From positions 1 through 20,146 of the IMG/VR virus record IMGVR_UViG_3300030020_000120: 20,146 bases of DNA. One strand, given 5' to 3'. The position numbers were made by a program, and so were the translations under genes. Under the pieces are notes generated by a model that was given only the letters and a program-made list of their open reading frames with translations, ran no database searches and was not told the DNA's origin. Within the stretch, counting starts at the first letter, position 1, and the number at the start of each line of letters is the position of its first letter. Below are positions 622 to 11,639 of this stretch, in pieces. The DNA comes from a virus.

Positions 622-2046
622 CTACACCCACGCCGAACCCCAGCTTTCCCGCTCGTGCCATAATGGCTGCTCGGTCCCGCTAGATATATCGTAGCACCAA
701 GTCGCGTTCCCCGACGGGAAGGTCAAAAAGATGAACTTATGCCCCTCCATTGTAACGACAAACGCCGTCACATCGTCCAACTGGGGATATTGCGCCCACG
801 CATGCTCACAGCCGAATTGAGAGATGCGCTGCGGACTGTAGCCGTTTAGTCGATAGAAAATACCATCGTCGCCCAGCCAAAAAACGGTGTTGTCCTCTTG
901 TGTCACCGCATAAGGTCCAGCCAATCCACGCTGGATATATGCTCCATCATAGCGCTCAAACGGAAAATTTGCCGCACCCGCGTCGTACCAGACCTCAATG
1001 CGAAACTGCTTAAAGATCAACAGTTGCTCATGGTAGTTGACGATTGCCAGGACGTTGTCCGGGCTGGCTTGAGCGCTAGCAAAGTCGAGTCCGTTGTATT
1101 GTGTGCCGTCACCAAGGCTGGACAGGAAAAACTCCTGCGTGCCCGTGGCGCTAAAAATAAAGTAGTCGTCAAAATAGACAACTGTCGTCGCCGGCATGAA
1201 CGCGGGCGCCGTGATCTGAGCGATCGTCAGAGAGGTAATCGTAGCAATTGCGCCCGCGGACGCCTGGCTTGGGAGAGCCGCGGCGAGCGTCAATGTCAAG
1301 TTTGGAAAAACGCCCGACACCGCCGATATCGTGGTCTTAAAAACAACTCCATTATCCAGCGTGATGGATATGGCCTGGCTAACGGCGACCTTTCCCGTGG
1401 CGTAAATGACGATGGTCTTATTGGTCGCCGATGTGTCTGTGACACCAGCGCCTGCTGTTGCCTGCGATGGAAGCGCCCCCGCGAGTGTAATGTTGTTCCC
1501 GCTAGGTGCGCCGCTGATTGTGGTGGCAAAAGAGCCGCCAGCGTCCAGCAGGATCGAGATGCTGTCGCCATTCGACATGCCTGATGCAGACTTTACCACG
1601 ATCGACGTAGCACCCGTGACCGCCGTGGAAAATAGACTGGTCTGCGTATAGGAATACGCCGTGGCGCTCAGAACTTGGTTGAGCCCACTGGGCTGATAAA
1701 CCCAGCCAACCGACCCGTCCACCATCACAAGCTGCGTGTTGTTGTCTGCTATGGAGACGGATGGACCCAGCGAGGTCTGCCCTATGGCTGTAGCCAGGCC
1801 GTCAGCATTGATGCTGAATAGCTCACCGCCCGACAGCGCATAAAGCGTGCCCGCCATGCCATGCAGGCCAGAGATCGGACCGTTCCCAAGCCGCGACCAA
1901 ACCGACAGGCCGGGACACATGAATATCGGGACTTGATCTTTCGCATCCTGCGGGGACCGTTCCACAAACATATTGATGTTGCGCGCGGCCAGCAGCGGAA
2001 CCGACCGCGCCGTATAGCTTTCAGCGGCAAACTGAATTGCAGGCAC
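622..2046 (-). CDS. P22 gp10-like packaged DNA stabilisation (tail hub) protein with two inserted modules
   Basis: This 474-aa protein starts at GTG (2046), 3 nt after the gp4-like gene's stop, with an AGGTG ribosome binding site. Residues 1-125 (ESYTARSVPLLAARNINMF, then CPGL and a run of propeller-like strands) and 285-474 (YFDDYFIF, LDFASAQASPDNV, EVWYDAGAANFPFERYDGA, FWLGDDG, PQRIS, GHKFIFLTFPSGNATW, WHERESW) match the P22 gp10 family. That protein plugs the portal/gp4 channel after packaging and holds the tail needle. About 135 residues (roughly 137-272) interrupt the usual layout. They consist of two tandem copies of a beta-rich module also present in the two neighbouring upstream proteins. 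The order gp4-like, gp10-like, appendage protein is the expected P22-type tail assembly order. Confidence 0.88.
   Translation of the reverse strand: MPAIQFAAESYTARSVPLLAARNINMFVERSPQDAKDQVPIFMCPGLSVWSRLGNGPISGLHGMAGTLYALSGGELFSINADGLATAIGQTSLGPSVSIADNNTQLVMVDGSVGWVYQPSGLNQVLSATAYSYTQTSLFSTAVTGATSIVVKSASGMSNGDSISILLDAGGSFATTISGAPSGNNITLAGALPSQATAGAGVTDTSATNKTIVIYATGKVAVSQAISITLDNGVVFKTTISAVSGVFPNLTLTLAAALPSQASAGAIATITSLTIAQITAPAFMPATTVVYFDDYFIFSATGTQEFFLSSLGDGTQYNGLDFASAQASPDNVLAIVNYHEQLLIFKQFRIEVWYDAGAANFPFERYDGAYIQRGLAGPYAVTQEDNTVFWLGDDGIFYRLNGYSPQRISQFGCEHAWAQYPQLDDVTAFVVTMEGHKFIFLTFPSGNATWCYDISSGTEQPLWHERESWGSAWV
1237..1434 (-). repeat. Protein module copy 4 (second copy inside gp10-like protein)
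   Basis: Residues about 205-270 of the gp10-like protein. Key pattern: ISITLDNGVVFKTTISAV, then TLTLAAALPSQASAGA. It lines up with copy 3 just before it through L-D-x-G-x-x-F-x-T-T-I-S and A-L-P-S-Q-A-[ST]-A-G-A. It has lost the usual V-G-D/N-G-D turn, so it is the most divergent copy. Confidence 0.75.
1441..1629 (-). repeat. Protein module copy 3 (first copy inside gp10-like protein)
   Basis: Residues about 140-202 of the gp10-like protein: G-A-T-S-I-V-V, S-A-S-G-M-S-N-G-D, L-L-D-A-G-G-S-F-A-T-T-I-S, then I-T-L-A-G-A-L-P-S-Q-A-T-A-G-A. It is clearly related to copies 1 and 2 in the adjacent upstream genes. Confidence 0.82.
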
Positions 2047-2049
2047 GCG

Positions 2050-3033
2050 TCACCTATATCCAGGCTGGGATGCGTAGCCGAAAAAGACCGACTCAGGCTC
2101 CCGATCCCAGGCCGAAACACGCAAAAACCATTCGTCAGCTTTAGCCTTCAACCGGTCGAAGCGATCGCCGGGAACATCGAACTCAGGCGCGATTTCAACG
2201 GCCAAGTTCCACCGCAGAGGTGCCAACCATTCAACCGGAAAGTCCACGTCATTGGTTAGCGAAGTCACATCCTGAATTGCATGCTGCGCCACAAACCGAA
2301 CACCCGCGGTATCATCCGATGGCGTAGGCCAAACGTTCATCAGCCCAATTGGGGTCGAGTACGCGCCACGGCCCTGCTGCGGATCATAAAAGAACTGCGT
2401 GACGGTTCCCGTGTTGTATTTATTTGGAAGATAGTCGTAATCAAAGCGAGACAACGCAATGAGCGGCGTCTCAATCTGCGTCGAATATAGGTAGCGGCGC
2501 CCTTCCGGCACGCGCAGGGGGCGAACGAGCTTGGTCGTATAGTCGAAGCAAATAGCGCCGCTCGTCGCCTGCGACGGAACTCCGTAAGCCAGCGTGACCG
2601 AGCCTGTTGAAACAGCGGTTAGCGTGGTCCAATAGATCACACCAAGGTCTAGCTGCACCCCGAAGTTATCGCCCACCAGCATGCCAGTTGACGATGCAAC
2701 CGACAGAACCGTGGCGCCCATCGTTGCCGTTGCGGTCAGTGTAGTCTGCGTCAAATCTTGAAACAGGCACGCGTTGTCGATGCTGCCTGTTCCAAGTTTA
2801 TACTGATTTTGCAAAGGCTGAAGAAACAGAATGCATTCAGCCTCGCACCAGACATGAATTTGTGCGACCGACCAACCCTTAATCAACGCATTGAGCGCGT
2901 CCATGCAGTCCCGCAGCATCGACGCATCAGGCGTTTCGTTTTCCTGTATTGCGCCGCATAGCCGCAGGGAGCCGGTTACGATCGTGACAACTTGTTGGTT
3001 GTAGCTATAGGTTCCGCTCGTGGTGCCGGACAT
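2050..3033 (-). CDS. P22 gp4-like head-closure / tail accessory factor
   Basis: A 327-aa protein whose ATG shares one base with the TAA of the preceding gene (TAATG), implying translational coupling. The N-terminus VVTIVTGSLRLCGAIQENE, then DCMDALNALIKGWSVAQIHV, is the helical signature of the P22 gp4 family. That protein binds under the portal and forms the platform for the tail hub. The match continues after residue 165 (RPLRVPEGRRYLY, ALSRFDYDYLPNK, FFYDPQ, MNVWPTP, FPVEWLAPLRWNLAVEIAPEF). One beta-rich module (about residues 97-165) sits between the two halves. The gene lies directly upstream of the gp10-like gene, as expected. P22 gp4 itself is about 166 aa. Long versions with this C-terminal extension occur in other podoviruses, so the family call is secure and the extra domain's role is unknown. 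Confidence 0.85.
   Translation of the reverse strand: MSGTTSGTYSYNQQVVTIVTGSLRLCGAIQENETPDASMLRDCMDALNALIKGWSVAQIHVWCEAECILFLQPLQNQYKLGTGSIDNACLFQDLTQTTLTATATMGATVLSVASSTGMLVGDNFGVQLDLGVIYWTTLTAVSTGSVTLAYGVPSQATSGAICFDYTTKLVRPLRVPEGRRYLYSTQIETPLIALSRFDYDYLPNKYNTGTVTQFFYDPQQGRGAYSTPIGLMNVWPTPSDDTAGVRFVAQHAIQDVTSLTNDVDFPVEWLAPLRWNLAVEIAPEFDVPGDRFDRLKAKADEWFLRVSAWDREPESVFFGYASQPGYR
2539..2745 (-). repeat. Protein module copy 2 (inside gp4-like protein)
   Basis: Residues about 97-165 of the gp4-like protein: M-G-A-T-V-L-S-V-A-S-S-T-G-M-L-V-G-D, Q-L-D-L-G-V-I-Y-W-T-T-L-T, then V-T-L-A-Y-G-V-P-S-Q-A-T-S-G-A. It shares the L-D-x-G and P-S-Q-A-[ST]-x-G-A landmarks with the two copies in the gp10-like protein. 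Confidence 0.82.
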
Positions 3034-3506
3034 TACGTGCCACCCACGCTAGAAAGGCTAATGACGGCGTTCTCAATCGGATCACCGTAAAGCGTGCCGA
3101 CCGAGCCGGGCAGGCCGCGGCCGGTCCACGAAAGCGTGCTGCCAGATATCCCCGTCAGAGTAAACTGAAACGGCACACCACTATCCAGCATGACCTGCAC
3201 CAAATTGCCGACCGTAAAACCGACCGTTGAGGCAACGGTGATAAGCGTCGCTCCAGCCGCAGCCGGCGCGGAAACTTGCGTGCCCACAATGGAAAAGACA
3301 TTCGCCTGGCGCGGCCGGGGGATCGGCACGGACTGGTCATCCCGCACCCCGACAACCAAATCCTGCGGCTGGCGCGGGGAGAACGAATGGCCATGCGTGA
3401 CCATGCCGTCCCACTGCTTGCGCGTATTCGACGCCCGGACCTTCGTGCCGCGTATGTCGTCTATTTGGTAGTAATCGCCGCCGCGATAGAACTTGTCCGC
3501 AACCAA
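3033..3506 (-). CDS. Conserved phage neck/tail protein with C-terminal beta module
   Basis: A 157-aa protein. The chosen start is TTG at 3506, five bases after a strong AGGAGG that overlaps the stop of the preceding gene; no ATG fits as well. Residues 1-66 (YRGGDYY, KVRASNTRKQWDG, SPRQPQDLVVGVRDDQSV, PRPR) belong to a recurrent phage protein type with the pattern VRAS-x-TRK-x-W-x-G and R-x-P-Q-D, seen near head-tail joining genes. I know of no proven function. Residues about 78-146 are the first copy of the beta-rich module that recurs in the next two proteins. The stop overlaps the gp4-like start (TAATG), so it probably belongs to the same neck/tail unit. Confidence 0.82.
   Translation of the reverse strand: MVADKFYRGGDYYQIDDIRGTKVRASNTRKQWDGMVTHGHSFSPRQPQDLVVGVRDDQSVPIPRPRQANVFSIVGTQVSAPAAAGATLITVASTVGFTVGNLVQVMLDSGVPFQFTLTGISGSTLSWTGRGLPGSVGTLYGDPIENAVISLSSVGGT
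3069..3275 (-). repeat. Protein module copy 1 (C-terminus of 157-aa protein)
   Basis: Residues about 78-146: G-A-T-L-I-T-V-A-S-T-V-G-F-T-V-G-N, V-M-L-D-S-G-V-P-F-Q-F-T-L-T, S-T-L-S-W-T-G-R-G-L-P-G-S. It matches the other copies through its first two thirds. The terminal P-S-Q-A-x-x-G-A is replaced by L-P-G-S-V-G-T. Confidence 0.72.
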
Positions 3507-5696: not shown

Positions 5697-7253
5697 TTAC
5701 GCGCCCCTCATTCCTGCTCGGGCTAAAAGTAGCTGGGCAGAAGGGTAGACGATCTCTCTAGGTTCAGCTTCGTCAATTTTACCGCCCGCAATCGGAAACC
5801 TAAAACTCATTTGAGGCTCCTGAGGCTGCGTGCGTAGCTTGCCCGGGCGCACATCGTCTTCCGCCTGGTAAATGGGGGGAAGCCTCGGCCTAACACCGCG
5901 AAACAAGTCTTCTATTGTGATAATTTGAACGCGCGGGAAGCTACCATGCGCTGTCTTCGTGTTGCCCGCTCGTGCAGCAGCGGCCTCTACCTCTGGCGTA
6001 GGTTTGGCCAAGCACACGAAAAGCCCCATGTTTGCGCTTTCAGCATCAACGGTTCCGAGTAAGTCTCGAACCATTGTCGGAGCGATCCTTCCGGACTTTA
6101 CCGACACGATCACTTGTCCAGTTCCAAGAGGGCCATTTCGAAAGAAAATACGGCCGTCTACACCTCGGTCCTTTCCTTTCTTGTAGTCACAGTAGTTTTG
6201 CACTCCAACAAGCCAATTAGCCCACCACTGAAACTGGTATTCGTCTCGCTTTGCCAGATCTCGTGCAGAGTCCATGTCTTCGGGGCGACCAACCACAGGC
6301 GCCCTAAATCCGTCACACTGCTTTTTAAGGCGTTCCTCAATTACGGATACGGCGTAATTAGTGATATCAATACCTATCCAAGAACGCTCCATGTGCTGGG
6401 CAGCCTCCACTGTCGTGCCGCACCCGCAAAATGGATCGAGCACAACATCCCCGGGTTTAGTGGATGCTTCGATAATGCGCCGAAGCAACGCTATCGGCTT
6501 TTGCGTTGGATAACCCAAGCGCTCCTGGGAGGCCGGTTGCAGGCAGGGAATACGCCACACGTTGTCAAGCGTGCGGTCCTCTTTCATACGGTAAATAAGG
6601 TTACCCTGCTCATCGCGCGCATTTATCATTTTGCCGCCAACTTTCTTGCGCGCCAATTGCTTAAACGGGGTATCTCTTTTCTCTTTCAATTGATTAAACA
6701 CAAACTCGCTATCCACGTCTTTGGCAAAAAAGAATATTGTGTCCGTAGCGCGAGGAAATAGTTTTTTTCTGCTGTCGTGAATTTTATTATAATAATACCA
6801 GTATATCTCGTTGCGGAATTGCTCCTCTCCAAACACGGAGTTGAGCATAAGTCTAATATACGCGCTGGCCGTGGGGTCGCAATGCAGGTAAATGCTTCCC
6901 GTACGCTTTAGAACACGCTTTAACTCTATTAGCCGAGGCATCATCATGCATAAATATGCCATCGTATCGGTTTTGCCGAGAAACGTGAGCATTGCGCTTA
7001 ATAGAGCGGCTGGCCGGCCGCCGCGCGACATGACGGCGTCGAAAGCAGTCTCGGAGTCGTTATTCCACGCCCACGTATCCATGAAAGCGCCCGCTTGTGC
7101 CACTGATGGCGCACCGTCGGGGCGGTCAAAAATTTTGTTGTACTGCGCCCTTGAGTTAAAGGGAGGGTCAAGATACACAAGGTCAACTGATTGGTCCGCG
7201 ACATGCTTACGCAGGTGCCAAAGGTTATCTCCATAGTAGAGAGAAGCGGACAT
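5697..7253 (-). CDS. Beta-class DNA methyltransferase fused to an Mrr-like nuclease domain
   Basis: A 518-aa protein. ATG at 7253 is preferred over an upstream in-frame ATG (7319) because GGAG lies eight bases before it and the MTase fold starts here (MSASLYYGDNLW). Motif IV DPPF is at residues 29-32, and the SAM-binding motif D-P-F-C-G-C-G at 273-279 comes after it, the order of beta-class N4-cytosine/N6-adenine methyltransferases. Residues about 335-455 look like an Mrr-type PD-(D/E)XK domain (KGKDRGVDGRIFF, GQVIVSVKSG, MVRDLLGTV). D366 and K386 are candidate catalytic residues, but the usual Q/E two residues before the Lys is Ser here. The fused nuclease could cut DNA or only bind it. No separate restriction partner or control gene is nearby. 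The stretch around 6590-6870 looks AT-richer than the phage genes, consistent with transfer as cargo. Confidence 0.85.
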   Translation of the reverse strand: MSASLYYGDNLWHLRKHVADQSVDLVYLDPPFNSRAQYNKIFDRPDGAPSVAQAGAFMDTWAWNNDSETAFDAVMSRGGRPAALLSAMLTFLGKTDTMAYLCMMMPRLIELKRVLKRTGSIYLHCDPTASAYIRLMLNSVFGEEQFRNEIYWYYYNKIHDSRKKLFPRATDTIFFFAKDVDSEFVFNQLKEKRDTPFKQLARKKVGGKMINARDEQGNLIYRMKEDRTLDNVWRIPCLQPASQERLGYPTQKPIALLRRIIEASTKPGDVVLDPFCGCGTTVEAAQHMERSWIGIDITNYAVSVIEERLKKQCDGFRAPVVGRPEDMDSARDLAKRDEYQFQWWANWLVGVQNYCDYKKGKDRGVDGRIFFRNGPLGTGQVIVSVKSGRIAPTMVRDLLGTVDAESANMGLFVCLAKPTPEVEAAAARAGNTKTAHGSFPRVQIITIEDLFRGVRPRLPPIYQAEDDVRPGKLRTQPQEPQMSFRFPIAGGKIDEAEPREIVYPSAQLLLARAGMRGA

Positions 7254-7263
7254 TGACCTAGCT

Positions 7264-7284
7264 CCAAGTTCAAAACGAACTTGG
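7264..7284. promoter_or_regulatory. Operator-like perfect dyad upstream of the methyltransferase
   Basis: CCAAGTTC, five bases, GAACTTGG: 8-bp perfect arms centred about 21 bases before the methyltransferase ATG, just downstream of a candidate promoter. The position suits repression by a dimeric protein, or an mRNA hairpin close to the ribosome binding site (GGAG at 7262-7265, sharing two bases with the dyad). Confidence 0.6.
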
Positions 7285-7288
7285 CAGA

Positions 7289-7316
7289 CGTATCTGCGCG
7301 GTGTACGCATAGTCAA
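7289..7316 (-). promoter_or_regulatory. Candidate promoter of the methyltransferase gene
   Basis: On the minus strand, TTGACT (7316-7311), 16 bases, GATACG (7294-7289). A small dyad GCAGA-CGTA-TCTGC (7284-7297) covers the -10 region. The -35 is good and the -10 weak. It lies after the transposase terminator, so the methyltransferase may have its own transcript. Confidence 0.45.
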
Positions 7317-7350
7317 CAAAAAACAATACGAACATAGCTGCCATGTTCGT
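7313..7350 (-). terminator. Probable intrinsic terminator after the transposase
   Basis: On the minus strand, ACGAACAT, seven bases, ATGTTCGT (8-bp perfect stem, 7350-7328), followed by TATTGTTTTTTG. It starts 18 bases after the transposase stop. The stem has few G/C pairs, so termination may be partial. Confidence 0.62.
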
Positions 7351-7367: not shown

Positions 7368-8237
7368 TTATTTGACCGTATACATCCGTGGGCGCTTGGG
7401 GGCGTCCGCCTTGGCGTCGATCAGCGCCACCACATCCTCCATGCTCCACAGCGTCTTGCTGATGCCAGCGGCCATCGCCGGGCTGCAACGGAGCGTCTTG
7501 TGCTGGCGAATGAAGTTGTACCAGAGGGTATAGAGGCTAACCATGTGGACGTGCGGCTCAACCTTCTTGGAGAAGGCGTTGGTCAGGCATGTGAACCGAC
7601 GCATCTGCATCCGCATGGTCAGGTTCTGGCGCTCAACGTAGCTGGTGGAGATATGGCGCGGATCGGGGTTGCCCATGCCGCGCTCTTTCCGGCAGCCTGT
7701 GCATTCAGCGGGGCTATAGCGGCCAGCGCCTGCAACCGTGTCGCCGTAGATTTTGACCAAGATGCCATAGTCAATATCGCCGCCGAACGCGCCCTCAATG
7801 GCGTCCAGGTAGGTCTTGAGGTTGTCGGTCGTTAGCTGGACCTTGTTTGCCAAGCGGCTCGCGGCGTCCTGCATGAAAGCGTGGGCGCACTCCGCATCGC
7901 GGCTGCCGACCAGGAAGGAAACGATCAGCTTCGTATCGGCATCCAGGGCGGTCCACGTCCATAAATCGCCAGCGCCTTCGGGAGCAGCCTTTGCGGCTTC
8001 CACGTTCTTCTTTTTCGCATAGCAGAACGACCAGATTTCATCGCATTGCACGCGCTTGGACTTCACGCCGCGCACGTTCTGGTCGTGGAAGTCAATGCAG
8101 GCTTCCCCAGCCTCGGCCAGGAGCTTCGCCACCGTGTTGATGCTCACGTCCGCCACGCGGCTGATGGAGCGCATGGAGGAGCCCTCCACCAGCATGTTGA
8201 GGATTTGGACACGCTTGGCGGTGGGGAGCTTGTTCAT
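7368..8237 (-). CDS. IS1-family (DDE) transposase
   Basis: A 289-aa protein starting MNKLPTAKRVQILNMLVEGS. ATG at 8237 follows AAGGGG; an ATG at 8276 would add 13 residues. Residues about 8-42 are an N-terminal helix-turn-helix (SMRSISRVADVSINTVAKLL). The catalytic D-D-E triad is visible as CDEIW (D66), TTDN (D138) and SYVERQN (E202), the last being a hallmark of the IS1-like group, followed by the C-terminal WYNFIRQHKTLR. Unlike classical IS1, which needs a -1 frameshift to join InsA and InsB, this is one continuous frame, as in the ISMhu11-like subgroup. It should cut and join the 25-bp ends found at 5652 and 9887. It is divergent from the P63C gene, with a repeat-rich 102-bp spacer between them. 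Confidence 0.9.
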   Translation of the reverse strand: MNKLPTAKRVQILNMLVEGSSMRSISRVADVSINTVAKLLAEAGEACIDFHDQNVRGVKSKRVQCDEIWSFCYAKKKNVEAAKAAPEGAGDLWTWTALDADTKLIVSFLVGSRDAECAHAFMQDAASRLANKVQLTTDNLKTYLDAIEGAFGGDIDYGILVKIYGDTVAGAGRYSPAECTGCRKERGMGNPDPRHISTSYVERQNLTMRMQMRRFTCLTNAFSKKVEPHVHMVSLYTLWYNFIRQHKTLRCSPAMAAGISKTLWSMEDVVALIDAKADAPKRPRMYTVK

Positions 8238-8258
8238 GCCCCTTTGTAATGAACTTTT

Positions 8259-8363
8259 ATGCTTAGTGTCAAGCATGATTAGTAAGCATCCGAGATTGCG
8301 ATTATGCTTGCATAAGGCGTAATCTTGATGTAAGCAAGCATGGACAAGTTGTGGAATGCTTAC
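8259..8363. promoter_or_regulatory. Divergent control region with repeated TAAGCA/TGCTTA sites
   Basis: The spacer between the transposase and P63C genes, plus the first codons of the latter, has TGCTTA at 8260 and 8358 and TAAGCA at 8283 and 8331. It also has near copies: AAGCAT at 8271 and 8336, and the dyad TTATGC-TT-GCATAA at 8303-8316. Four exact hexamers in about 105 bases is far above chance. A plus-strand promoter TTGCGA (8296), 18 bases, TAATCT (8320) would start transcription only a few bases before the P63C ATG. Confidence 0.6.
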
Positions 8364-9549: not shown

Positions 9550-9787
9550 TGGTGGCCTCCGACTTCCACGTTCCCGCAACGGGGCGGGCAGTCCAACCAT
9601 TCCAGTCCGCATCCCACTCTAACGTGGCCTCCGCCTCGACTTCGCCACCCATATAAATCACCACCAGCATTCCATCGCGAGGTCCGCCCGGGATGTGAGC
9701 TAGGTCCTCAACAGATTTGGTCAACCAGAGGCCGTATCTCTCGACACCCCCCGGCCCCTCGTTTGTGTCGAAATACACCCTATGCAT
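9533..9787 (-). CDS. Small hypothetical protein, transposon cargo (84 aa)
   Basis: The frame reads MHRVYFDTNEGPGGVERYGLWLTKSVEDLAHIPGG. ATG at 9787 is preferred, though an in-frame ATG at 9817 would add ten residues of unlikely composition. The ribosome binding site is weak (GGTGG). The protein is acidic, with a run of probable beta strands (DGMLVVIYMGGEVEAEATLEWDADWNGWTARPVAGTW). Nothing identifies its function. It is probably co-transcribed with the overlapping 73-aa gene. A 16-bp dyad at 9801-9816 lies just upstream. Confidence 0.65.
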   Translation of the reverse strand: MHRVYFDTNEGPGGVERYGLWLTKSVEDLAHIPGGPRDGMLVVIYMGGEVEAEATLEWDADWNGWTARPVAGTWKSEATNAQGT

Positions 9788-9800
9788 GGCACCACCGCTT

Positions 9801-9816
9801 TGCTTACCGCTAAGCA
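9801..9816. promoter_or_regulatory. TGCTTA-TAAGCA dyad upstream of the small cargo genes
   Basis: TGCTTA, four bases, TAAGCA: perfect 6-bp arms 14 bases before the ATG at 9787. The hexamer is the one repeated in the transposase/P63C spacer, so one transposon-encoded regulator may act at both places. Confidence 0.6.
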
Positions 9817-9862
9817 TAGCATAAGCTGGGCCGGGACGGGACGCTAGGGTGTCTCAGATTTA

Positions 9863-9887
9863 GAGATTTTCAAACTGAGACACTACC
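9863..9887 (-). repeat. Right terminal inverted repeat
   Basis: Reverse complement reads GGTAGTGTCTCA, then G, then TTTGAAAATCTC (24 of 25 match the left end). Just inside, TGAGACAC (reverse complement of 9848-9855) is a perfect inverted partner of the outer GTGTCTCA, so the end contains an internal dyad. Confidence 0.93.
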
Positions 9888-9895
9888 CGGCAAGC
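9888..9895. repeat. 8-bp target site duplication, right copy
   Basis: CGGCAAGC directly outside the right terminal inverted repeat, identical to 5644-5651. Confidence 0.93.
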
Positions 9896-10572
9896 CACTG
9901 GTGATAAACCGGTGCACCCCAGATCGCCGCCGGCAATAGCGACGCCACCGCCGCGCACGCGCCAGCTACAAGCGCCGGACGCCACACGCCGGCCACCAGC
10001 AGATATGCCGGCCACAGGCATAGATTTGGCTTGCAGGCCACCAGCGCGCCAATGGCAACTCCTGCCGCAATATCGCGGCCGGTCCGCATGAGCGCCCAAG
10101 CACCAGCACACAAAGCGAACAGCATGGCATAGTCCTGGCCCAGCCAAATACCCGCACTGACATGCGGCACAAGCAGCGCCCACGTCACGCGCCAGGATTG
10201 AACCGGAACCGGCGCATAGAGAACCACAGCAGCGACACCAGCCGCCATCAGTGCGGCCTGCCCCATGATCCACCACGGCGCCACAGCGAGCGCGGGCAGA
10301 TACGACAACGCAGCAAAAAACGGCAGCATCGCAGGCGGCGATAGGTTCACGTCCGCCTGACCCGGCACGATCGCCGCCGGCGTCAGGGCGTATGACGCGT
10401 ATGGATTGACACCGTGAACCGCAGCCCACCCAGAAGACCAGAGCGCGCCCCATACGCGAAGCTGCGTGCCACCCTGGAGCGTCAAGCCGGAAAGCGCCGT
10501 TGCCGCGGTGACGGCCAGAAGACCCGCCGCAGCCAACGCAAAGACTACCCAGGGTTGCTTGATGCGTATCAT
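9888..10572 (-). pseudogene. GT87-type membrane glycosyltransferase, N-terminal fragment (split by transposon)
   Basis: ATG at 10572 has GGAG eight bases upstream. The frame reads 228 codons up to the insertion point and would end G-stop inside the transposon end. Multiple hydrophobic segments are visible (PWVVFALAAAGLLAVTAATA, AAVVLYAPV and others). GT87/DUF2029 features include a luminal-type loop GVNPYASYALTP, NLSPPAMLPFFAALSYLP, GQDYAMLFALCAGAWAL and GALVACKPNL. Such GT-C enzymes transfer a sugar from a polyprenyl-phosphate donor outside the membrane. In a phage this could change the host surface. The truncated half lacks the C-terminal segments and is probably inactive. It is separated from the capsid gene by a terminator, so it looks like an independently expressed accessory gene. 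Confidence 0.88.
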
Positions 10573-10602
10573 GATCGCCGCTCCGCTTGCCTGGCGCGGA
10601 GT

Positions 10603-10629
10603 CTAATACGCAAACATTCACAAACGCAA
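10603..10629 (-). promoter_or_regulatory. Candidate promoter of the glycosyltransferase gene
   Basis: On the minus strand, TTGCGT (10629-10624), 15 bases, TATTAG (10608-10603), about 30 bases before the ATG. The spacer is short and the boxes imperfect. The main reason to expect a promoter is the strong terminator just upstream. Confidence 0.33.
10609..10625 (-). repeat. 17-bp inverted repeat, right copy
   Basis: Reads GTTTGTGAATGTTTGCG on the minus strand, the exact reverse-complement partner of 4999-5015. It lies between the candidate -35 and -10 boxes of the glycosyltransferase gene. Confidence 0.7.
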
Positions 10630-10676
10630 CGGATTAGGCGTGCAGTTCGGCGTTTTAGTACATCCGGCTGCCACAC

Positions 10677-10709
10677 AAAAAAAGGCGCCAAGTTTCCCCA
10701 GCGCCCTTT
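10677..10709 (-). terminator. Intrinsic terminator after the major capsid gene
   Basis: On the minus strand, AAAGGGCGC pairs with GCGCCTTTT through nine positions (one G-T), around a 12-base loop, followed by seven T in a row. It starts 22 bases after the capsid stop. It ends the head operon and insulates the accessory gene downstream. Confidence 0.85.
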
Positions 10710-10730
10710 CCCTAACTGTTACCCCAAGCG

Positions 10731-11639
10731 CTACACGCCCGGCGTTCCAAACAGCCCGCGCCAATCGGCCACGTTCGCGCTGTAGCGCTCATAGCATGCC
10801 GCTTTCGCGTTCTTCGTGTCGAAGTCGTTGTCCTGGTCAAAGGATATCTTGTCGCGCTCAAAGTATTGCGCGCCGCGCGGCACGTTCGTGCGGATAAACC
10901 AAGCCGTTGCCGAGCTAAAGTAGTGGTTAACCTTGATCCCCTTCGGGAACACGCCAACCGCACGCAGCACGTTGATCGCATTGTTGGCGGTATCGTTCTG
11001 AAGCACCGACTTGTAGATGCGGTTCGCTTCGAAGAACAACTGTGGCGGCACATGCAAAGACTGCGGCAGCACGCTGATTTTCAGGCCACGGTTGTTGACG
11101 GTCTGCATGATCTGCACACAGAGGTCTTCGACCGCGAGTTCCGAAAGATCGGCTGCCGTGGTGAGAAGATTGGACTGCGAGCCGGCAAGCGTCGGGTGTG
11201 CGGCAGAAAACACCGCCTGGCCGTCGCCAATCGGATAGGACGAACTGAAACCATTGTTGTAAATGGACGCCAGCACGTTTTCCTTGGTTTGCCGCATCGA
11301 GAAAGCGAGCTGCTGAGCGCGGCGCTTGGAAACCGCTTCATACAGGTCGTCACGCAGTTCTTCGAACGTCACGATATAGCCCAACGCATACGCAATGTGC
11401 GTGAAGCGCGTTACCGGCCCCTGCACTTCGGTATCGTACACGATCTGCTGACCCTGCGGCTTGACCGGCGCGAGACCAAAGCCGGTAATTTCGACTTCTT
11501 CCTCATACGCCTTGTCCGATGTCTCAATATCGAACAGGTCAACGAACTCCTCCTCGTGCTCGTCATACGAGCGGCCCCAGAAGGCTTTAATGCCGGGCCA
11601 AAGCGCTTTTGGGTGGGAGCCTGTGGTAATTACGGCCAT
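10731..11639 (-). CDS. Major capsid protein
   Basis: A 302-aa protein. ATG at 11639 has GGAG eight bases upstream. It starts MAVITTGSHPKALWPGIKAF and contains YDEHEEEFVDLFDIETSDKAYEEE, GPVTRFTHIAYALGYIVTFE, RRAQQLAFSMRQTKENVLASIYNNGF, FSAAHPTLAG and NAAFKA-like helices near the end. This is the general pattern of phage major head proteins of HK97-like fold, including the Mu gpT-like group. Size, its place after scaffold and decoration genes, and the strong terminator right behind it all agree. No N-terminal delta domain or protease is fused, so assembly should use the separate scaffold protein upstream. Confidence 0.87.
   Translation of the reverse strand: MAVITTGSHPKALWPGIKAFWGRSYDEHEEEFVDLFDIETSDKAYEEEVEITGFGLAPVKPQGQQIVYDTEVQGPVTRFTHIAYALGYIVTFEELRDDLYEAVSKRRAQQLAFSMRQTKENVLASIYNNGFSSSYPIGDGQAVFSAAHPTLAGSQSNLLTTAADLSELAVEDLCVQIMQTVNNRGLKISVLPQSLHVPPQLFFEANRIYKSVLQNDTANNAINVLRAVGVFPKGIKVNHYFSSATAWFIRTNVPRGAQYFERDKISFDQDNDFDTKNAKAACYERYSANVADWRGLFGTPGV

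Follow-up and report, generated by a model that had tools for sequence, protein, structure and literature searches.

Why should one small module recur along the axis of a single viral tail? The question is raised by a 20,146-nucleotide stretch of DNA (IMG/VR record IMGVR_UViG_3300030020_000120, positions 1 to 20,146; hereafter the window), in which a module of about 70 residues is found four times in three adjacent tail genes, all on the minus strand. The first gene (3033..3506) encodes p157, a core of about 75 residues (DDxxG...RQPQDxVxGVxDxQxVxxxRPRQ) followed by a C-terminal module. p157 has no match in Pfam, PHROG or NCBIfam, and its first ~75 residues match 80-94-aa proteins whose genes lie upstream of that for the adaptor in three annotated phages. 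The second gene (2050..3033) encodes a gp4-like tail adaptor (phrog_12985, E 1.5e-19) in which the module lies between YxLGxGSxD and a YTTxLxRPLR segment. In tblastn searches this protein matches 'tail adaptor' genes of MW202796 (E 1e-12) and MW202785 (E 2e-8), and its gene precedes the gp10-like gene, an order fitting a podoviral tail adaptor of the gp4 / T7 gp11 type. The third gene (622..2046) encodes a gp10-like nozzle with two tandem modules (phrog_578, head closure Hc3, E 6.5e-75), the propeller region of which is homologous to P22 gp10 / Hc3 and which matches the solved needle-head/stabilization proteins 7eeq and 9vyg.

Copy 1 occupies positions 3060-3281 (p157 residues 76-149) and has a C-terminal YGDPIEN variant; copy 2 occupies 2515-2751 (gp4-like residues 95-173). 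Within the gp10-like protein, copy 3 (gp10a; 1420-1647, residues 134-209) is the extra copy, while copy 4 (gp10b; 1216-1419, residues 210-277) is the orthologue of the one module that relatives have in gp10. These are the places that a sequence-only reading had assigned to the repeat, and the assignment stands: for all six pairs, the local alignment score was never equalled by any of 2,000 composition-preserving shuffles. The strongest pair is gp4/gp10a, which scores 138 where the shuffles average 34 (P~2e-10), followed by gp10a/gp10b (P~5e-8) and p157/gp4 (P~4e-7); p157/gp10b is the weakest (P~7e-4). Searched against the window alone, the gp4-like protein recovers the other three copies with E values of 1e-10 to 4e-5.

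The motifs proposed in the same reading are borne out. L-D-x-G is found in all four copies, G-A-T in three (gp10b begins later), and P-S-Q-A-[ST]-x-G-A, described as mostly shared, also in three, being absent from the p157 copy. One correction concerns the tandem in gp10: copy 3 is full, whereas copy 4 lacks the first-strand segment 'TQT...GAT' and is slightly shorter. In a loose gapped alignment of their DNA the copies are only 0.49-0.65 identical to one another; they are therefore not recent duplications, and this origin was dropped.

Module-free relatives exist for all three proteins, from which it follows that the module was inserted in gp4 and gp10 and appended to p157. At the site that holds about 150 residues in the window, relatives of gp10 (DSL-LC05, P26218 and Vibrio phages) continue after just a few; adaptor relatives run from ...YxLGxxG directly to RPxx; and the p157 relatives of ~80-94 aa stop where the module starts. 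The clean gaps at the gp4 and gp10 junctions bear out the earlier proposal that the module interrupts known families, and the idea that it is a core part of the propeller was discarded, as relatives lack the segment. One adaptor, that of MW202674 (L010 4995-5978), carries an unrelated beta-rich insertion (GTTLTITGITSG...GTYTVN) at the same site, which makes this loop a candidate hot spot for insertions. Module-free p157 relatives (L046 5992-6234 and L013 4236-4481) have CxxC pairs (CICDVCG...) resembling a zinc ribbon; the p157 of the window lacks these cysteines.

It could still be argued that the likeness between copies reflects composition, as the module segments are rich in small residues (Ala, Thr, Gly and Ser) and some control proteins in the window reach mid-range scores of up to 53, or that the module is an ordinary part of the gp4 and gp10 cores. 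Shuffles of the same composition never attain the observed scores, however, while profile matches in relatives are as strong as E 1e-36, the gap in module-free relatives is clean and an autonomous fold is confidently predicted. Such an explanation is already refuted by these observations, and we regard it as highly improbable.

The fold was predicted with AlphaFold2 for the adaptor copy, using an alignment of 33 modules from the window and its IMG/VR relatives. The model is a six-stranded beta-barrel (mean pLDDT 93.2, pTM 0.77). The p157 copy is predicted with a pLDDT of ~90 and an identical strand order, such that the two copies modelled do not have unrelated folds; the p157 core gives a low-confidence model. 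In a Foldseek search of the PDB, the best match to the adaptor model is the tail-tube protein of Acinetobacter phage Mystique (9n71, E 6.6e-5, TM 0.79), followed by the tailspikes AP22 Gp54, LKA1 gp49, P560 and phi297 gp61, and then by V-ATPase subunits. Among the matches are 9n71, 4ru4, 4ru5, 7vul and 4y9v, those to LKA1 gp49 / phi297 gp61 (4ru4/4ru5) having a probability of 1.00 and a TM of ~0.7. The p157 model retrieves largely the same structures. The P22 coat protein is absent from the top 50 matches, although two papers relate its I-domain structurally to the barrels of LKA1 and Klebsiella phage K1 lyase (PMC5701251, PMC8822698). The best PDB match of the module sequence profile is also the Mystique tail tube, at residues 107-176 (E 5e-4), covering most of the module. 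This tube has an external domain, D1 (PMC12013898), which is taken to be the part matched.

No Pfam or PHROG family matches the module above threshold. The K1-lyase_Rider family (PF24149) is matched weakly, by 5 of the 33 modules at E<1 (best 0.0024; 0.027 among the first seven modules). Weak matches to FKBP, actin and FliN were put down to chance. An Ig-like domain was also considered and dropped, since the best fold matches are barrels and no Ig-type Pfam family is matched above threshold by any of the 33 modules, the only hit being a weak one to phrog_807 (E 0.08). Thus the module, for which the sequence-only reading knew no name, has none at the level of sequence, but its predicted fold is that of known phage barrel insertion domains. 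On the models, it folds independently as a six-stranded beta-barrel of the phage 'insertion domain' kind, and is inserted in or added to virion proteins that also exist without it.

Relatives were gathered from IMG/VR with p157 and the adaptor as queries, and from genomes with p157. They comprise viral contigs and genomes of Gluconacetobacter, Bradyrhizobium and Sphingomonas, taken as prophages; the search of genome contigs with the adaptor returned no relatives. In tblastn searches of INPHARED, the gp4 copy alone found no match and the gp10 pair found only Vibrio tail-fibre ends. Counted over all loci, with near-identical loci counted repeatedly, 213 of 217 module-bearing ORFs are p157, gp4 or gp10 genes. 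The remaining four are two copies of a 645-aa protein and two Vibrio phage tail-fibre proteins (L014 1820-4228 and L015 1955-4228), one in a 137-kb genome and one in 47-kb genomes, which end in a sequence relative of the module. Whole contigs of up to 64 kb hold no further copies save one weak match (E 1.7e-4), at positions 111-347 of IMGVR_UViG_3300037840_000301, in a 240-aa ORF downstream of gp10.

A census was made of the 51 contigs having all three genes, most of them uncultivated fragments, with module numbers given in the order p157, gp4, gp10. The counts are 000 in eight contigs, 010 in four, 110 in 18, 120 in six, 130 in one, 111 in 11, 121 in one and 112 in two, where absence means no profile match and very divergent copies may escape, as in L119, whose adaptor has a divergent module and which was therefore entered manually as 110. 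The census is strictly nested: no gp10 module is found without the other two, and no p157 module without that of the adaptor. Copy number varies from one to two in gp10 among module bearers, the second copy being found only in the window and IMGVR_UViG_3300048015_000068 among the relatives examined. Gluconacetobacter prophages (L047, L048, L055 and L058) have adaptors with two to three barrels in tandem.

A core tree built from the adaptor and nozzle with the module columns removed agrees with the nested census in supporting a late gain of the gp10 module. The adaptor module spans a clade of 42 contigs (support 100/97), with L119 inside, plus one contig outside it, L133. The gp10 modules are confined to one clade of 13 contigs (100/100) and L109, where the module occupies the same loop and whose placement in the clade the test does not reject (p 0.49). 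A second gp10 copy sets apart the window and one relative (99/93). That the adaptor acquired its module before p157 is less sure, as it depends mainly on the long-branched L133, and the other three 010 contigs, which fall inside the clade, may reflect loss or divergence. In module trees the copies largely cluster by host protein, and each has therefore been inherited at its own site since its gain. In the best tree the extra gp10 copy groups with gp4-type modules (support 70/0) and not with its neighbour, while an origin as a tandem duplicate of that neighbour is not rejected (AU test, p 0.14). The course of events would then be that the barrel entered the portal-proximal gp4-like adaptor and the C-terminus of p157 in an ancestral member of this podovirus group, later the propeller loop of the gp10-like nozzle, and that last a second gp10 barrel was added beside the first. 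Together with the tandem gp4 copies of the Gluconacetobacter prophages, the census and core tree uphold the earlier proposal of spread by insertion and duplication, here along a lineage.

The nozzle of this clade departs from canonical gp10, which has a C-terminal platform on the same chain; the name is taken from T7 gp12 by position only. In the clade of the window gp10 ends after the propeller, and the platform (~155 residues) forms the end of a separate ORF. This is generally the next one, and in most cases fibre-like or FN3-containing sequence precedes the platform in it; L109 excepted, every member whose sequence covers the region has this arrangement. The two parts lie at 622-2046 and 3-620 of the window, both on the minus strand, and at 9771-11195 and 11098-13641 of L064. 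Only the start of the second part falls within the window, which cuts the ORF; in a 99.8% identical contig the corresponding ORF is an 848-aa frame, script-derived ORF lengths being measured from stop to stop, the last ~155 residues of which are the missing platform. In the same four Gluconacetobacter prophages the platform is interrupted by about 700 residues, mostly within a single gp10 frame of 1210-1283 aa. Thus gp10 is interrupted at one place in the clade of the window and at another in the related Gluconacetobacter group. Barrel and split occur together in gp10 save in L109, which has the barrel and no split, and in L017, where the contig ends too early to show it. Elsewhere in the window, between the capsid and tail gene blocks, a putative IS1-like transposase ORF (7368-8276, minus) adjoins a large DNA methyltransferase-like ORF with a DPPF motif (5697-7319, minus).

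What the barrels do has to be judged from their conservation and from analogy. The most likely reading, to which we give an even chance, is that the module acts as an outward-facing brace and docking barrel gained stepwise by the adaptor, p157 and the nozzle. Each barrel would sit outside its own ring without entering the DNA channel, would strengthen contacts between subunits or neighbouring rings and would offer an attachment surface for fibre-like parts; this position and role are suggested by analogy with the T7 fiber dock and the crAss001 nozzle. In the larger contig set the gp4 module has a mean identity of 0.42 against 0.43 for the gp4 core; such near-equal conservation is expected of a part making specific contacts. 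The corresponding values are 0.39 and 0.56 for p157, reversing a ten-contig test in which its module had kept pace with its core, and 0.44 and 0.61 for gp10. This faster divergence also fits a loosely constrained or a host-facing part.

Both alternatives draw on it. Compact barrels might simply be tolerated in exposed loops, their number ratcheting up without any specific job, and the unrelated insertion in MW202674 indicates that the adaptor loop tolerates cargo; copy numbers, moreover, vary in Gluconacetobacter adaptors and in gp10. Near-neutral insertion seems to us a weaker candidate, perhaps a one-in-four prospect, as all contigs of the 42-contig clade have retained the gp4 module since its gain, at identities as low as ~40%, and confinement to three neighbouring axis proteins is unexpected of random insertion. 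A glycan- or receptor-binding module, its repeated barrels giving multivalent weak binding to the host surface, is rather unlikely. The K1 lyase rider and LKA1 barrels do take part in carbohydrate sites, a module ends the Vibrio tail fibres and the clade of the window joins fibre-like sequence to gp10. The most widespread copy, however, lies in the adaptor ring beside the portal, far from the cell, and evolves no faster than its own core, while what the copies have in common is structural (L-D-x-G, G-D) and not an aromatic binding face. On the conservation values, a structural role fits the adaptor copy best, with surface binding or baggage as candidates for the p157 and gp10 copies. A bolder and unlikely version of the bracing model is that the p157, adaptor and nozzle barrels pack into a continuous external sleeve around the portal and tail, built ring by ring, which would anchor the fibre domains grafted onto the split gp10.

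We know of no description of this barrel accumulating along one tail axis. Through the relatives, one domain can be followed step by step into successive proteins of the same molecular machine. Living intermediates represent nearly all of these steps, among them cultured Gluconacetobacter species with the module in a prophage; Gluconacetobacter diazotrophicus PA1 5 has two prophages of this group. Two questions thereby become testable: whether phage tail domains are recruited because they pair with their counterparts in adjacent rings, and whether inserted barrels do a job or are tolerated baggage.

The closest known systems are the insertion domains of LKA1 gp49 / phi297 gp61 and the K1 lyase rider (PF24149), which are likewise six-stranded barrels of ~75-90 residues interrupting another fold. 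The LKA1 domain, for which a relationship to V-ATPase and the P22 coat I-domain is described, deepens the substrate groove (PMC5701251); the rider contributes to a carbohydrate pocket and touches the neighbouring subunit, and mutating it reduces thermal stability (PMC8822698). These barrels occur once, in beta-helix enzymes, whereas those of the window occur in an adaptor, p157 and a propeller. The Mystique tail-tube domain (PDB 9n71), the best match of both structure and profile, is a single copy in the tube protein of a long-tailed phage. The coat I-domains of P22 and crAss001 are also barrels inserted in a virion protein, that of crAss001 being related to that of P22 and adding to shell stability (PMC10172136), but they lie in the coat and not in the tail. 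Tailed-phage Ig-like domains (e.g. phrog_807) are similarly promiscuous beta modules on virion proteins, but the closest folds to the window module are barrels. Such an Ig-like domain sits between propeller blades 2 and 3 of the crAss001 muzzle, its nozzle (PMC10172136), a comparable site for a beta domain of another fold, in the nozzle only. In T7 a beta 'fiber dock' domain is present in both the adaptor and the nozzle, and inter-blade loops of the nozzle propeller make the strongest subunit-subunit contacts (PMC6702177); the fiber dock is likened to the window barrels by domain order and provides a parallel for barrels that would brace the tail and dock its fibres.
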